A stretch of 64,000 bases of DNA from Arcticibacter tournemirensis (GTDB taxonomy: Bacteria; Bacteroidota; Bacteroidia; Sphingobacteriales; Sphingobacteriaceae), in contig NZ_VFPL01000001.1 of the NCBI RefSeq assembly GCF_006716645.1, positions 1,364,001 to 1,428,000 on the forward strand, written 5' to 3'. The notes under the pieces were generated by a model. The model was not told where the DNA came from and did no database searches. It saw only the letters and a program-made list of their open reading frames with translations. Positions 30,817 through 37,221 of this stretch are shown here, one piece after another (position 1 is the stretch's first letter; each line of letters begins with the position of its first letter). The translations under genes were made by a program, and so were the position numbers.

Positions 30817-31911
30817 CTACAAGCTGATCGCCTCCTGCCTCAGCAGGTGGTCGGCAATAACGAGTGCCGCCATAGCCTCTACAATAACCACTGCTCTTGG
30901 TACCACACATGGATCATGACGTCCTTTCCCTTTTATTTCGGCCGCATTTCCATCCTTGTCTATTGTTTGCTGACTTTGCATGATGGTCGCTATGGGCTTA
31001 AATGCTACTCTGAACATGATATCCATGCCATTGGAGATGCCACCCTGGATGCCTCCGGAGAAATTGGTGAGTGTACTGACGGGTGCATCGCCTTCAGGAG
31101 CTATAAAGATGTCGTTATGCTCCGAGCCTCTCATTTCAGAGCCGGCGAACCCAGACCCATATTCAAAGCCATGAACCGCGTTGATGCTCAGCATAGCCTT
31201 TCCAAGATCGGCATGAAGCTTATCGAATACCGGTTCGCCGAGGCCTACCGGGCAGTTCCGGATGATGCAGGAAATCTTTCCGCCGATCGTGTCGCCCTGC
31301 TTCCTGACGCCGTCGATCAGCTCAATCATTTCGTTCGCCGTAGCGGGGTCGGCACAACGCACGATGTTGCTTTCGCGTATTTCAAGCAGCTCGGCGAGAT
31401 TTCTACTCGGGACATTCGGAGCATCGATCGCTCCGGCAGACGAAACATGGGCAAATATCTCAATGCCTTTTTGCTTTAAGAATAGCCGTGCCACAGCTCC
31501 TGCGGCCACACGGGCTGCCGTTTCGCGGGCAGAAGAGCGGCCGCCGCCACGATAATCGCGGTTGCCGTATTTCGCCTGATACGTAAAATCCGCATGCGAA
31601 GGCCTGAATATATCTTTGTTGTGGTCATAGTCCTTCGACCGTTGATCCTCATTAGGGATAACCATGGCAATCGGCGTCCCAGTACTCTTACCCCCAAACA
31701 CCCCGGACAAAATCTTAGCGGTATCGCTTTCTTTTCTTTGCGTAGTGATCTTCGACTGCCCCGGCTTCCTCTTATCAAGTTCGCCCTGAATAAACTCCAG
31801 ATCGATCTCCACATTAGGAGGGCATCCGTCAATAATCACCCCTATAGCTTCACCGTGTGATTCCCCGAAGGTTGTAATGCGAAACAGTTGTCCGAAAGTA
31901 TTTCCCGCCAT
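30817..31911 (-). CDS. aroC: Chorismate synthase
   Basis: AroC converts EPSP to chorismate using reduced FMN. This 364-residue protein shows the conserved [18 protein letters not shown] near residues 14-31, the [14 protein letters not shown] region near 105, [20 protein letters not shown] near 125-144, and [11 protein letters not shown] near 288. The catalytic His pair (HG near 18, RPSHAD near 108) is present. It is the last gene of pheA-aroG/CM-aroA-aroC, separated from aroA by an array of 7-bp repeats. Confidence 0.97.
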
Positions 31912-32031: not shown

Positions 32032-33276
32032 TCAATTGTCAATTATAAAGAATCCCGCCTTCTCCAGGTCATTCCAGAACGAAGGGTACGACTTACCAAC
32101 AACCGCCGGGTCCTCAATAATTACTTTGGGGATTTTTAGCGCCAGAGGAGCAAAAGCCATAGCCATCCGGTGATCTTCGTATGTGTCAATTCTAACAATT
32201 TCAGGGAAGTGGAGGCCAGAGCAGTCCAGGTGATAGAACCCGTTGTCTTCATGAAGTTTCACGCCGATCTTGCCGAGCTCATTCTGCAGCGCCGCGATCC
32301 TGTCGGTCTCCTTGATCTTCAAAGTTTCAAGACCTGTAAATGTAGCGTTATGGCCTAAAGCAGCACTGCAAACGATCACTGTCTGAGCCAGGTCGGGGCA
32401 GTCTTTCAGATCGAACAGATCACCCTTGATCCCGGTCGCCACTTTAGATATCTCTATCCCGCCGTCGGTAAACTCAGTACTCACGCCAAAGTGTTCCATG
32501 ATGCTGCTGATCCTGCTGTCGCCCTGCAGGCTGCTCTTCTTAAGCCAGGGCAGTTTAATGGCGGCTGCGTCAGACAAGGCTGCAATCGAGTACCAGTAAG
32601 ACGCTGCGCTCCAGTCGGGTTCTACCGTGATCAAAGCATCTCCGAAATCCCGGGAAGGGATCAGAATAACGTTCTCCTTCCATTGATAACTGATACCCGC
32701 CTCGCTTAGCATGGATAAAGTCATCTCTACGTACGGCCTGGAAGTAAGCTCTCCTTCTATATTAAGTTCCAGTCCTTCGGGAAGAGCTGCCGCCACGAGC
32801 AATAATGCCGTGATGTACTGTGAACTCACATTGCCCCTGATGTTTATCTTGTTGTTCTTTTGGCTGAAGCCTTTATGAAAAGCAAGAGGAGGGAAGCCTT
32901 CTTCTTCGGCATAGTCCACTATAGCTCCCAGCTCTCTCAGCGCATTAACAAGTATGCCGATCGGGCGCTGTTTCATTCTTTCAGTACCCGTAAGAGTCGT
33001 CTCTGTGCCAGTTACCGCAAAATACGCACTAAGAAATCGCATAGCCGTTCCCGCCGGACCAATATTTATCAGAGGTGCATGGTCGGCAGCATTCTTCAGG
33101 CTCTCCTGCATCACCGCCGTATCATCAGCCGAAGAGAGGTTTCTAATACCGACCTTCCCCTTGCTAAGGGCGTTGAGGATCAGTGCGCGGTTGCTTTCGC
33201 TTTTCGATCCCGTAAGTTCAATAGAACAGAAAGATTCGGCCGATGGCTTTGAGAGAGTTAAAGACCTGTTCGTCAT
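32032..33276 (-). CDS. aroA: 3-phosphoshikimate 1-carboxyvinyltransferase (EPSP synthase)
   Basis: AroA joins phosphoenolpyruvate to shikimate-3-phosphate. This 414-residue protein shows GSKSESNRALILNAL (residues 24-38), the shikimate-binding start. The PEP loop NIGPAGTAMRFLSAYFA near 72-88 has a Gly-Thr-Ala, and the DTYEDHRMAMAFAPLAL motif is near 365. The LNAL..SADDT spacing fits the family. Its start overlaps the stop of the upstream DAHP synthase gene by 4 bp (33,273-33,276). Confidence 0.95.
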   Translation of the reverse strand: MTNRSLTLSKPSAESFCSIELTGSKSESNRALILNALSKGKVGIRNLSSADDTAVMQESLKNAADHAPLINIGPAGTAMRFLSAYFAVTGTETTLTGTERMKQRPIGILVNALRELGAIVDYAEEEGFPPLAFHKGFSQKNNKINIRGNVSSQYITALLLVAAALPEGLELNIEGELTSRPYVEMTLSMLSEAGISYQWKENVILIPSRDFGDALITVEPDWSAASYWYSIAALSDAAAIKLPWLKKSSLQGDSRISSIMEHFGVSTEFTDGGIEISKVATGIKGDLFDLKDCPDLAQTVIVCSAALGHNATFTGLETLKIKETDRIAALQNELGKIGVKLHEDNGFYHLDCSGLHFPEIVRIDTYEDHRMAMAFAPLALKIPKVIIEDPAVVGKSYPSFWNDLEKAGFFIIDN

Positions 33277-34382
33277 TTTTCAGCAACAGGGGCTTTTGCG
33301 TTCATGATCTCAGTCTGCCTGCGAATAGATTCCGCATGTATCAGCTCAAGCATTTTTGTGGTAAAGTCTTCGTCAAGCTTCAGGGCCTTGCCAAAACTTG
33401 CACGCTTTTGAATAATCTCATCCCATCGGTTTAACTGGAGGATAGTAATCCCGTTATCTCTTTTATACTCACCAATTTTATCTACTATCGACATCCTTTC
33501 AGCCAATTTCTGGATTACCAGGTCATCAATCTTGTCGATCTGCTTACGTAATTCAGCCAGCTTGTCAATCACTTTCGGATTTACCGGGTCAGGCTGACGA
33601 ATAGTAAGGTGATCGATCAGCTCAGAAAGGGAAGACGGAGTAAGCTGCTGTTTGGCATCTGTCCATGCTACCGAAGGATCGATGTGCGACTCGACCATTA
33701 ATCCCTGCATTTCAAGGTCAAGAGCCTTTTGTGAAATATAAGGGATCAGCTCGCGGTTGCCGCAAATGTGACTAGGGTCGCAGATTACAGGCAATTGCGG
33801 ACAAAGAGTTTTCAGCTGGATAGTAAGCTCCCACATCGGCTCATTCCTGAAGGCCGACTTTTCGTAAGACGAAAATCCACGCGATATGGCAGCCAGCTTG
33901 GTGATACCCGCGTTGTTAATGCGCTCCAGTGCGCCGATCCATAAAGAAAGATCAGGGTTCACCGGATTCTTTACCATTACAGGTACATCAACACCCTTTA
34001 AAGCGTCGGCTATTTCCTGAACCGTGAAAGGATTTACCGTTGAACGGGCTCCAACCCATAGAATGTCCACACCAGCTGCTAACGCCTCTTCTACGTGTTT
34101 GCCTGTAGCTACCTCTACCGTAATAGGCAAACCGGTTTGTTCTTTAGCACGTTGAAGCCATTTCAAGCCGATGCTTCCAATACCTTCAAACTCTCCCGGC
34201 CGGGTGCGCGGTTTCCATATTCCTGCCCTTAGTACAGATATCTTACCTGTTTTAGCTAAAAGGTCGGCAGTTGCTAAAAGCTGTTCTTCAGTTTCAGCGC
34301 TGCAGGGACCTGCAATTACCAGTGGCTGATGCTGCGGCTTCAACCAGTTGCTTAGTGGTTCTATGTTGAGATTAAGTTTCAT
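33273..34382 (-). CDS. Bifunctional DAHP synthase / chorismate mutase
   Basis: This 369-residue protein has an N-terminal DAHP synthase domain of the KDO8PS-like type (residues 15-265: VIAGPCSAET near 23, LRAGIWKPRTRPGEFEG near 52, KNPVNPDLSLWIGAL near 137, CDPSHICGNR near 199). It also has a C-terminal AroQ-type chorismate mutase (about 280-355, LAELRKQIDKIDDLVIQKLAERM). It thus combines the first step of the shikimate pathway with the branch-point step to prephenate. The fused mutase commonly allows feedback by prephenate or chorismate. It sits between pheA and aroA in the attenuated operon. Confidence 0.93.
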   Translation of the reverse strand: MKLNLNIEPLSNWLKPQHQPLVIAGPCSAETEEQLLATADLLAKTGKISVLRAGIWKPRTRPGEFEGIGSIGLKWLQRAKEQTGLPITVEVATGKHVEEALAAGVDILWVGARSTVNPFTVQEIADALKGVDVPVMVKNPVNPDLSLWIGALERINNAGITKLAAISRGFSSYEKSAFRNEPMWELTIQLKTLCPQLPVICDPSHICGNRELIPYISQKALDLEMQGLMVESHIDPSVAWTDAKQQLTPSSLSELIDHLTIRQPDPVNPKVIDKLAELRKQIDKIDDLVIQKLAERMSIVDKIGEYKRDNGITILQLNRWDEIIQKRASFGKALKLDEDFTTKMLELIHAESIRRQTEIMNAKAPVAEK

Positions 34383-34482: not shown

Positions 34483-35313
34483 TTAAACGCGGTCGTTCTT
34501 AAGATACTCGCCCATCAGCGTGAAATTCACGGTATGCCGTAGCACCTTACTGATTGCTTCCTGGTAATGTGCTGTTTTATCCCATTCAACGTCAACATAA
34601 AAATTATACTCATTTCGTCTTCCTAAAACAGGCATCGACTGGATCTTGGTGAGGTTTACCTCATTTTCGGCAAAGATATTTAACACTTTAGCCAGCGATC
34701 CCACTTCGTCGGTGGTCTGAAAGGAAATAGATGCTTTATTAGCCCCCGGTATATCCGTTTCCTTATGATCTGTGAGGATCAGAAAACGTGTGTAATTCTT
34801 CTTGTTCGATTCGATACGCCGTTCGAGGATCTCGAGGTTGTACAGCTTGGCAGCAAGCTGGTTGGCTATGGCTACGGTATCAGTAAGCTGCTCATCCCTT
34901 ATCCGTTTGGCACATGCCGCGGTATCGGTGCTCTCTTTAATATTCAGATGCGGATATTCATCAAAAAAGTCGATACACTGACGTATAGCAATCGGATGTG
35001 ATTCAACATTCTTTATCTGTTCAAATTTAACGCCGGGCAAAGCGAGAAGGTGCAGCTGGATGCGCAGATACACTTCGCCGATGATCGAGAAGTGGTAGTC
35101 GCGCAGAAGAGTGTAGTTCGGAAGAAGGCTTCCGGCAATCGAGTTCTCAATGGCCATCACTACGTAGTCGGCCTTTTTGTTTCGCAGAGCCTGGCAGGTC
35201 TGCTTAAACGAACTGCATTCGATCGTTTCAATATCGTCGCCGAAAAACTTTAAAGCCGCTTCCTCGTGGAAGGACGCCTTAATTCCCTGTATTGCTACTC
35301 TTTTTTTATCCAT
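34483..35313 (-). CDS. pheA: Prephenate dehydratase
   Basis: This 276-residue enzyme makes phenylpyruvate for phenylalanine synthesis. Residues 1-180 are the dehydratase domain with IQGIKASFHEEAA, the MAIENSIAGSL motif and the catalytic TRF (NYTRFLIL near 170). Residues 193-270 are a regulatory ACT domain (VGSLAKVLNIFAENEVNLTKIQS) that would bind phenylalanine. It is the first gene of the aromatic operon; its ATG starts 4 bases after the U-tract of the leader terminator, so synthesis depends directly on read-through. Confidence 0.95.
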   Translation of the reverse strand: MDKKRVAIQGIKASFHEEAALKFFGDDIETIECSSFKQTCQALRNKKADYVVMAIENSIAGSLLPNYTLLRDYHFSIIGEVYLRIQLHLLALPGVKFEQIKNVESHPIAIRQCIDFFDEYPHLNIKESTDTAACAKRIRDEQLTDTVAIANQLAAKLYNLEILERRIESNKKNYTRFLILTDHKETDIPGANKASISFQTTDEVGSLAKVLNIFAENEVNLTKIQSMPVLGRRNEYNFYVDVEWDKTAHYQEAISKVLRHTVNFTLMGEYLKNDRV

Positions 35314-35317
35314 GGTT

Positions 35318-35351
35318 AAAAAAAAAGTCCCGGCTGTTGGGCCGGGACTTT
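35318..35351 (-). terminator. Attenuator terminator upstream of pheA
   Basis: On the minus strand AAAGTCCCGGC (35,351-35,341) pairs perfectly with GCCGGGACTTT (35,334-35,324) around ccaaca and is followed by nine U in total (35,326-35,318). The pheA ATG is at 35,313. The 5' arm can instead pair with an upstream antiterminator strand. Confidence 0.93.
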
Positions 35352-35380
35352 ATATATAGTTCTTTTGGTCAAAACATATC

Positions 35381-35390
35381 AGTCCCGGCT
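35381..35390 (-). promoter_or_regulatory. Antiterminator strand of the aromatic attenuator
   Basis: On the RNA, AGCCGGGACT (35,390-35,381) begins one base after the leader peptide stop. It is complementary to the 5' arm of the terminator (35,350-35,341). A ribosome at the stop codon would cover it; a ribosome stalled at upstream Tyr/Phe codons would leave it free to block the terminator. Confidence 0.88.
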
Positions 35391-35391
35391 T

Positions 35392-35442
35392 TTACCTAAA
35401 GTAGTAAAAGTAACCGAACCAGTATGCATTGATATTTCTCAT
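35392..35442 (-). CDS. Aromatic-rich leader peptide (attenuation)
   Basis: This open frame encodes 16 residues, MRNINAYWFGYFYYFR, then TAA. Eight of the 16 residues are aromatic (four Tyr, three Phe, one Trp), and they are clustered in the last ten. It begins about 19 bases downstream of a perfect promoter -7 element and ends where the antiterminator strand begins. That is the layout of a transcription attenuator sensing charged aromatic tRNAs. It controls pheA and the shikimate genes behind it. The composition and position make a chance reading frame very unlikely. Confidence 0.92.
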   Translation of the reverse strand: MRNINAYWFGYFYYFR

Positions 35443-35460
35443 TTACTGTTTTGCTTGAGC

Positions 35461-35490
35461 CAAATATACGCGTATATTTTTATGTGTCAA
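35461..35490 (-). promoter_or_regulatory. Promoter of the pheA-aro operon
   Basis: On the minus strand TTG (35,490-35,488), 19 bp and TATATTTG (35,468-35,461) match the Bacteroidota consensus exactly. Transcription should start around 35,455, just upstream of the leader peptide ATG at 35,442. Confidence 0.85.
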
Positions 35491-35706: not shown

Positions 35707-37221
35707 ATGGAAAGTTACATTCTAGCTCTTGATCAGGGCACTACCAGTTCCAGGGCAATTGTTTTTGACCACAAAGGCGAGATCAGATCAGTCGCGCAAA
35801 AAGAATTTACACAGATCTTTCCCCAGCCAGGATGGGTTGAACACGACCCTAACGAAATTTGGTCGACACAGGCGGGTGTAGCTGCAGAAGCAACGGTGAA
35901 ACTTGGCCTGAACGGGACGAACATAAAAGCCATCGGTATTACCAATCAGCGTGAAACAGCCATTGTGTGGAACCGCACTACCGGAGAACCTGTATACAAC
36001 GCCATCGTTTGGCAGGACAGGCGCACAGCGCCTTTTTGCGATCAGCTGAAACGCGACGGGTATACCGACACGATACGTTCTAAAACCGGACTGGTGATCG
36101 ATTCGTATTTCTCGGCTACCAAGGTAAAGTGGATCCTGGATAATGTAGAAGGAGCAAGGGAGAAGGCAGAGGCAGGTGAACTGGCTTTCGGTACCGTGGA
36201 CAGCTGGCTGATCTGGAAGCTTACACGCGGACGGGTACATGTAACCGATGTGACCAATGCCAGCCGTACCATGCTCTTCAATATCCGGACTCAGCAATGG
36301 GACCCTGAACTGATGGATATCTTCGGGATACCGGCAAGCATGCTGCCGGAGGTAAAACAATCGAGTGAGATCTACGGTGAAACGGCAACAACCATCTTCG
36401 CTTCTAAAATTCCTATTGCAGGCATCGCCGGCGATCAGCAGGCCGCCCTTTTTGGCCAGATGTGCATCGATAAGGCGATGGTAAAGAATACCTACGGAAC
36501 CGGCTGTTTCATGTTGATGAACATTGGCGACGAGTTTATTGAATCGAAGAATAATCTGCTCACTACTATCGCATGGAAGATCGACGGAAAGATCCAGTAT
36601 GCTTTCGAGGGAAGTATATTCATTGGCGGTGCAGTGGTACAGTGGCTTCGCGATGGGCTGGGCATCATTAAGAACTCGGGTGATATTGAAGAGCTGGCGC
36701 TCAGCGTTCCCGACACGGGCGACCTGTATTTTGTTCCCGCCTTCGCGGGACTTGGAGCGCCTTACTGGAATTCGGATGTGAGAGGAACAATTGTTGGTCT
36801 CACCCGTGGAAGCACCGCCGGACATTTAGCCCGGGCAGCTATTGAGTCGATCGCCTTACAAACCATGGATGTGTTAAAAGCAATGGAAGCCGACGCTGGC
36901 ATGAAGATCCAGGAGTTAAGAGTAGACGGCGGCGCCACCGTTAATAATCTTTTAATGCAGTTTCAGGCAGATATTTTAAATTGCAAGGTGATCAGGCCTA
37001 ATATCGTCGAAACCACAGCTCTTGGAGCTGCGTATCTGGCAGGTCTGGCCGTTGGATACTGGAAGGATGTGGATGAAATTCAGCAGCTTTGGCAAACCGA
37101 AAGAACCTTTGTTCCTGCATCGGGTACCGAAGAGATACAGAAAACGATCAAAGGCTGGAAAAAGGCGATACATGTAGCACAGTGCTGGTGTGATGATAAA
37201 ATTGAATCACAAACCATTTAG
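35707..37221 (+). CDS. glpK: Glycerol kinase
   Basis: GlpK phosphorylates glycerol to sn-glycerol-3-phosphate. This 504-residue FGGY-family kinase shows the phosphate-binding [15 protein letters not shown] (residues 7-21), [11 protein letters not shown] near 42, the [28 protein letters not shown] region near 80-107, and the FGGY signature region [19 protein letters not shown] near 375. It is followed 20 bp downstream by glpF, forming a glycerol-uptake operon. The roughly 245 bp between it and the divergent aromatic promoter show no clear TAnnTTTG element for glpK. Confidence 0.96.

Follow-up and report, generated by a model that had tools for sequence, protein, structure and literature searches.

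A probable ribosome-mediated attenuator with phenylalanine and tyrosine codons upstream of pheA in Arcticibacter tournemirensis

The pheA locus and its leader region

The window analysed here, a 64,000-nt stretch of the Arcticibacter tournemirensis genome, carries four consecutive genes on the minus strand, placed by family searches as pheA, a DAHP synthase/chorismate mutase gene, aroA and aroC. This is the gene set that a sequence-only reading of the same DNA had assigned to one operon under a translation-coupled attenuator. The genes are preceded by a short leader region (minus strand, 35490-35318), and the parts of the locus are the following.

35490-35461, minus: promoter, TTGACA (35490-35485) and -7 box TATATTTG (35468-35461)
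35442-35392, minus: leader ORF MRNINAYWFGYFYYFR with its stop codon, 16 codons, 8 of 16 aromatic, aromatic core kept in 41 nonredundant leaders
35427-35374, minus: outer stem of the leader hairpin, 35427-35423 (codons 6-7) pairing with 35378-35374, present in the window's own fold
35410-35389, minus: inner leader hairpin, 35410-35403 (codons 11-14) pairing with 35396-35389
35389-35381, minus: strand 2, the 5' strand of the antiterminator, GCCGGGACT, 9 nt
35351-35341, minus: strand 3, the 3' strand of the antiterminator and 5' arm of the terminator, AAAGTCCCGGC
35334-35318, minus: strand 4, the 3' arm of the terminator, GCCGGGACTTT, and the U tail
35351-35324, minus: terminator, AAAGTCCCGGC-CCAACA-GCCGGGACTTT, a perfect 11-bp stem, with six more U to 35318
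34483-35313, minus: pheA, prephenate dehydratase, PF00800 at 191 bits (cut-off 25.2), best NCBIfam match below its cut-off
33273-34382, minus: DAHP synthase with a C-terminal chorismate mutase domain, NCBIfam matches below their cut-offs, both domains placed
32032-33276, minus: aroA, EPSP synthase, TIGR01356 above cut-off
30817-31911, minus: aroC, chorismate synthase, family match above cut-off
35707-37221, divergent: glpK, upstream of the attenuator region

The promoter can be read directly from the sequence, and it agrees with the sequence-only reading, as does the leader of 16 codons with eight aromatic residues. Smaller details of that reading required correction. The antiterminator strand begins two bases, and not one, after the leader stop codon; it is complementary to the terminator arm over 9 bases, where 9-10 had been claimed; and the perfect 11-bp terminator does end 4 nt before the pheA ATG (at 35313), but three of its nine U belong to the stem. 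In the 100-nt gap 3' of pheA, inspection by eye revealed no U-run terminator and no exact TAnnTTTG, only TACGTTTT. The four genes are presumably co-transcribed. PMC9723704 gives TAnnTTTG as the -7 consensus; an exact copy lies at most 75 nt from the leader ATG in 55 of the 79 leaders described below, and most of the 24 misses read TAnnTTTA.

An ORF of this kind is rare. Both strands of the window were screened for ORFs with an ATG start, a length of 10-25 codons and at least six and at least 45% phenylalanine, tryptophan or tyrosine residues, which returned one match, the pheA leader, and a single match when the whole window was dinucleotide-shuffled 20 times; ORFs with at least eight aromatic residues were absent from all 20 shuffles. 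The predicted ORF is short and rich in end-product codons, as expected of an attenuator. Furthermore, the leader RNA folds with a z-score of -5.1, none of 200 shuffles being as well folded, and the minimum-energy fold of the full-length leader consists of the leader hairpin and the terminator.

Conservation of the leader and its RNA structures in close relatives

Close relatives were collected by a PheA search of genome contigs, of which the best 80 of 309 loci were taken and all 80 used. A script found an aromatic-rich ORF before pheA in 78 of them; the contigs of the remaining two (L070 and L071) begin inside the leader, which is in frame by eye, bringing the count to 80 of 80. The 79 leaders with a start, the window included, were reduced to 41 at less than 90% identity, aligned, and their pairs counted, giving a covariation set of close relatives whose relatedness inflates the shuffle tests reported here. 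Four of the records (L015, L021, L023 and L026) bear the titles Legionellaceae, Flavihumibacter and Sphingobacterium thalpophilum, while their leaders resemble those of Daejeonella/Sphingobacteriaceae loci; these titles may be wrong.

Among the 41 leaders, 98.0% of the terminator cells are paired and 20 cells are changed on both sides, whereas shuffles average 3.5 such cells and slid controls do not exceed 6. An intrinsic terminator, with its 11-bp stem, U-run and covariation, stands between the leader ORF and pheA. The short distance between its U-run and the pheA ATG in the window would also suit control of pheA translation, with a hairpin that hides the start codon instead of ending transcription, but the terminator lies far from the ATG in some relatives, for instance more than 70 nt in L028, L032, L005, L063 and L074, with the U-run kept, and we consider such translational control very unlikely.

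The antiterminator is paired in 92.8% of cells, as opposed to 53.3% or less in slid controls, with a covariation score of 0.121 against 0.052 or less. Shuffles average 1.2 cells with a change on both sides and the antiterminator has 7, but two slid controls do as well or better (9 at +2, 7 at -3), and this count therefore does not single it out. Its pairs with a both-side change are equalled in 16 of 500 shuffles and its pair types in 24 of 500, in both cases only a moderate excess over chance. Strand 2 pairs with the 5' arm of the terminator, and the two structures are therefore mutually exclusive.

The third conserved element is the leader hairpin adjoining the antiterminator strand, which the sequence-only reading overlooked. 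Its inner part is paired in 98.6% of cells and has 8 cells with a change on both sides, where shuffles average 1.2 and slid controls give up to 7, while its pair types do not exceed the shuffles (367 of 500 as high); RNAalifold, run unguided, picked this inner hairpin and the terminator. In six sequences a C-G pair has become U-A, the Tyr13 codon ending in T exactly where its partner is A, and in 34 sequences the third base of this codon is C with G as its partner; there is one mismatch. As the six U-A sequences look like one clade, the change may be a single event. The outer stem (CATATT:AATATG) is paired in 72.3% of cells and has 36 cells changed on both sides (mean 23.3, slid controls at most 20), but its 7 pairs with a both-side change do not rise above the shuffles, which average 6.9, and are fewer than in some slides. 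This outer stem is weak in the window, where it comprises 5 bp with a wobble and is not the best helix of a helix scan, and stronger in relatives. The inner hairpin overlaps strand 2 by only one base and thus need not compete with the antiterminator.

The alignment of relatives that had been proposed as a check hence finds the aromatic leader conserved and the stems covarying, and the retention of leader codons and pairing supports a translation-coupled attenuator of the pheA operon.

Amino acids read by the leader

Mixed Tyr, Phe and Trp codons had been taken as a sign that the whole aromatic pool is sensed. The comparison bears this out for phenylalanine and tyrosine, each of which occurs in all 41 nonredundant leaders, but not for tryptophan, which occurs in 13 of them and has a separate WWW leader at trpE. 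Codon 7 is Tyr in 40 leaders and Phe in one; codon 12 is Phe and codon 13 Tyr throughout (41 of 41 each); codon 14 is Tyr in 20, Phe in 19 and another residue in two. Codon 8, the window's Trp, is Tyr in 16, Trp in 12, Phe in 10, Leu in two and Gln in one. Exchanges between Tyr and Phe as well as synonymous TAC/TAT changes are found across these leaders, and 37 diverged leaders all contain Phe and Tyr, 15 of them also Trp. Tryptophan was accordingly rejected as a sensed amino acid, and since Phe and Tyr are conserved, Trp is not, and trpE has its own Trp leader, the pheA leader would read Phe and Tyr.

A TyrA-like gene elsewhere in the genome scores just above the PF02153 cut-off, and no aromatic leader was seen in the 330 bp examined there. 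A supply of tyrosine only via phenylalanine hydroxylase was rejected, given this gene and the lack of a PF00351 match in the genome.

Ribosome position, spacing and the proposed mechanism

The effect of a ribosome on the leader RNA was modelled by an equilibrium walk on an RNA that ends before strand 4, with an assumed footprint that extends 12 nt upstream and 15 nt downstream of the P-site codon's first base. In the window, the modelled probability of pairing between strands 2 and 3 is 0.97-0.99 with the A site on codons 7-14 and drops to 0.77 at codon 15, 0.44 at codon 16 and 0.01 at the stop; averaged across the 41 leaders, it is 0.96-0.99 at codons 7, 8, 9 and 11-14 and 0.00 at the stop. 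Under this footprint, a stalled ribosome would leave strand 2 free and a ribosome that finishes the leader would cover it. Walk and fold together thus predict read-through in starvation and termination in plenty. In the state with no ribosome, the window has a 2:3 probability of 0.96 and the leaders a mean of 0.90, and silence in the absence of translation, as in the E. coli trp attenuator, is therefore not predicted at that stage, although the minimum-energy fold of the full-length RNA does contain the terminator.

The placement of strand 2 is also found in distant leaders. Among 37 diverged leaders, the distance from the last aromatic codon to the start of strand 2 is 3-14 nt (median 9) in 34, compared to 12% in shuffles. 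These 37 had been chosen by hand; the six remaining leaders found were run afterwards, and four of them fall into the same range. Combined, the spacing holds in 38 of 43 leaders from 16 other families against the expected 12%, a comparison for which a binomial figure would be descriptive only, as several of these families, counted from genome listings, are close to each other. The set excludes second locus identifiers of the same genome, all of the close family f1 and the leaders L171-L176, which came from the covariance model alone. One of the 34 in-range leaders, L200, depends on a poor terminator call (score 6.5), and 9 of the 37 have a complement of the terminator arm that does not surpass shuffles (p >= 0.05). 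Under the mask used, a ribosome reading the last codon occupies a further 10 nt downstream, so that strand 2 begins about where a stalled ribosome ends. A model in which the leader stop codon decides was rejected, the position of the stop being free in diverged leaders: the start of strand 2 relative to the end of the stop codon ranges from -34 to +4 nt in the 34 in-range leaders.

These parts, their pairing and their spacing, established by sequence and comparison, very probably constitute a ribosome-mediated (leader-peptide) transcription attenuator that senses charged tRNA-Tyr and tRNA-Phe. The order of events would be as follows. RNA polymerase would start at the promoter, and a ribosome would start on the leader at once. 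With plentiful tyrosine and phenylalanine, the ribosome would reach the stop codon and cover strand 2, whereupon strands 3 and 4 would pair, the terminator would form and transcription would end before pheA. If either amino acid is short, the ribosome would stall with its A site on one of the aromatic codons 7-15 and its front edge short of strand 2; strands 2 and 3 would then pair, the terminator could not form, and pheA, the DAHP synthase/chorismate mutase gene, aroA and aroC would be transcribed.

A different use of the same parts would be nascent-peptide arrest, for which TnaC is the precedent: free Phe or Tyr would act on a ribosome carrying the leader peptide, instead of slow decoding. 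The aromatic core YFY(Y/F), which is very conserved in close relatives, would fit such an arrest peptide. Over 16 families, however, the peptide diverges while its richness in Phe and Tyr and the spacing to strand 2 stay, and stalling would switch the genes on, which fits starvation and not excess; arrest is highly improbable.

Another alternative combines a plain intrinsic terminator, for example a leftover or a control of read-through, with a meaningless small ORF. In the genome of A. tournemirensis itself, a GTCCCGG...CCGGGAC stem also occurs 3' of an unrelated gene (L002), which shows that the stem sequence alone is common; this second genomic match of the region was rejected as an attenuator, being an ordinary terminator behind another gene. 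At pheA, however, glpK is divergent, and the terminator is therefore not the end of an upstream gene. The rarity of such ORFs in window and shuffles, the codon-level constraint across the 41 leaders and the retained spacing of strand 2 in the diverged ones likewise speak against a plain terminator, leaving this explanation scarcely credible.

Distribution of the leader in the phylum

PheA was matched in 172 of 198 genomes of the phylum, and the upstream DNA was examined in 70 of the 172, namely the 30 best matches, which include the A. tournemirensis genome and five others of its family, and 40 picked for family spread. A leader was accepted with at least 30% and four aromatic residues, or at least 33% and five, with looser readings in some loci. 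In the class of the window, taken as Bacteroidia on the names of the close relatives, a leader was found in 35 of 38 genomes (25 of 26 plus 10 of 12, one of the latter by a looser reading), a spread beyond the order that the sequence-only reading had likewise overlooked. In other classes it was found in 4 of 32: three, and one by a looser reading, account for the four such genomes among the 30 best matches, while the scan returned no leader in the other 28 same-phylum genomes outside the class, which serve as its control. The PheA matches of these four out-of-class genomes have 43-46% identity to the search protein, and a joint transfer of gene and leader is possible there.

An even draw of 99 genomes of the class contained 26 with PF00800, some of which were also in the first sample; 17 of the 26 have a leader (14 by the strict rules, three by looser readings) and nine have none. 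In family f66 (L193, L196 and L206) and genus g19 (L104, L119 and L125), PheA is present in all three genomes sampled from each and the scan found no leader; these cases appear to be losses.

A phylum-wide covariance model matched 59 of 395 genomes at E <= 0.001. Of 15 places opened, eight are pheA leaders, five are leaders of other operons (two thrA, two hisG and one phenylalanine-hydroxylase-like, assigned partly by eye), and two have neither a leader nor a downstream gene in the stretch; the 59 genomes therefore cannot be read as a tally of pheA leaders.

Relation to known systems

No Rfam family reaches its gathering score over the attenuator region: Phe_leader (RF01859) scores 21 bits and Thr_leader 28.9 bits, each below its gathering score of 55. 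A T-box-like tRNA-binding or other ligand-binding riboswitch that mimics a leader peptide would share the terminator/antiterminator pair, which is common to both kinds, but T-box is absent from all 27 Rfam matches up to E = 10 and the conserved elements are codons and the codon-to-strand-2 distance, so that its probability is next to nil. The pheA leader would represent an RNA family unmatched in Rfam.

In E. coli, PheL is a short, aromatic-rich leader with Phe codons, followed by an alternative antiterminator and a terminator just before pheA. The window shares with it (RF01859) the gene and the layout of leader, terminator and antiterminator, but has Phe and Tyr codons where PheL has Phe codons. 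The E. coli trp attenuator consists of a leader hairpin, an antiterminator and a terminator and is silent without translation. As in trp, the position of the ribosome would decide between the structures at pheA; in contrast to trp, the inner hairpin of the window overlaps strand 2 by one base, and its state without a ribosome favours the antiterminator at equilibrium.

Candidate attenuators of amino-acid operons in Bacteroidetes/Chlorobi were reportedly described by Vitreschak et al. in 2004. For Flavobacterium psychrophilum, an excerpt of a transcriptome study mentions 'strong clues' for leader peptides before amino-acid operons (PMC9723704); these candidates share with pheA the phylum and the type of operon, amino-acid biosynthesis, and individual operons are not named in that excerpt. 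Leader-peptide-like small ORFs are mentioned in a study on Bacteroides thetaiotaomicron (PMC7366714), and leader genes in Bacteroidetes were counted by their distance to the next gene in a study whose excerpt names no pheA case (PMC4833913). Word searches of open-access literature gave no title naming a Bacteroidota pheA leader among the matches listed. The sequence-only reading, right on its main point, knew of no such leader in Bacteroidota, but given the F. psychrophilum clues (PMC9723704) leader peptides are not wholly new there. The element before pheA is genuine and well conserved, and very probably an attenuator that works by a known mechanism, in a lineage with few descriptions of it.

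Leaders at other operons

Leaders of other composition stand before further biosynthetic genes. The trpE gene of A. tournemirensis (L114/L213, G000:C1 near 121450, plus strand) is preceded by the leader MLIIKHTQNWWWHAISSAGNRYVYTE with WWW and then a terminator. Searching 31 genomes with this TrpE gave 30 loci, of which seven at paralog level were left out; a script found a WW-containing leader in 17 of the 23 true trpE loci, A. tournemirensis included, with a spacing of 11-18 nt in 14 of 17. The complements at trpE beat shuffles at p < 0.05 in only 3 of 17 (p = 0.37 in A. tournemirensis).

In the same genome, a Thr/Ile leader, MIKNIYTIITTITTTGTAGSGGRSNMV, and a terminator precede an aspartokinase-like gene (L183, G000:C2 near 304531, minus strand), and a His-rich leader, MTDSFTYHHHLHHRH, precedes hisG (L115, G000:C1 near 2648300, minus strand). 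Spacings are 10, 10 and 12 nt in three Thr/Ile leaders and 18, 19 and -26 in three His leaders. Behind the His leader of A. tournemirensis there is no clear U-run terminator, only a weak hairpin, and control may therefore differ at hisG. In another genome (G367, L177), MKNLNNTYYYYPILTRRIGQ and a terminator stand before a phenylalanine-hydroxylase-like gene, leader and gene being named by eye; this is possibly a Tyr-specific attenuator. At ilvD of A. tournemirensis no leader was found in 420 bp; when a longer stretch was taken, its final 1500 bases held a single TTG ORF, which was rejected as unconvincing.

Leader-peptide attenuation might be a principal means of controlling amino-acid operons in Bacteroidia. 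It would read Phe and Tyr at pheA, Trp at trpE, Thr and Ile at thrA and His at hisG, and Tyr at the phenylalanine-hydroxylase-like gene of one genome, with an almost constant spacing at pheA, where the antiterminator follows the last control codon by about 9 nt, and read-through as the default without a ribosome, opposite to E. coli trp. As a joint statement this proposal is tentative, and we regard it as somewhat doubtful. If true, it would require close coupling of transcription and translation in Bacteroidota, a phylum that makes little use of Shine-Dalgarno signals, and the pheA attenuator would offer a simple in vivo reporter of whether ribosomes follow RNA polymerase closely there. With a pheA attenuator in most sampled genomes of the class that have the gene, and trpE, thrA and hisG leaders beside it in one genome, the mechanism would gain a second major lineage.

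A further hairpin element, ATGAAACCATSAT...GATAGCTTYAT, lies between the terminator and the pheA ATG, just before the start, in L005, L063 and L074. Among the loci searched against Rfam, none gave it a convincing match. In A. tournemirensis the pattern has one match, before a lipoprotein-like gene (L243), and a similar hairpin stands before thrA.
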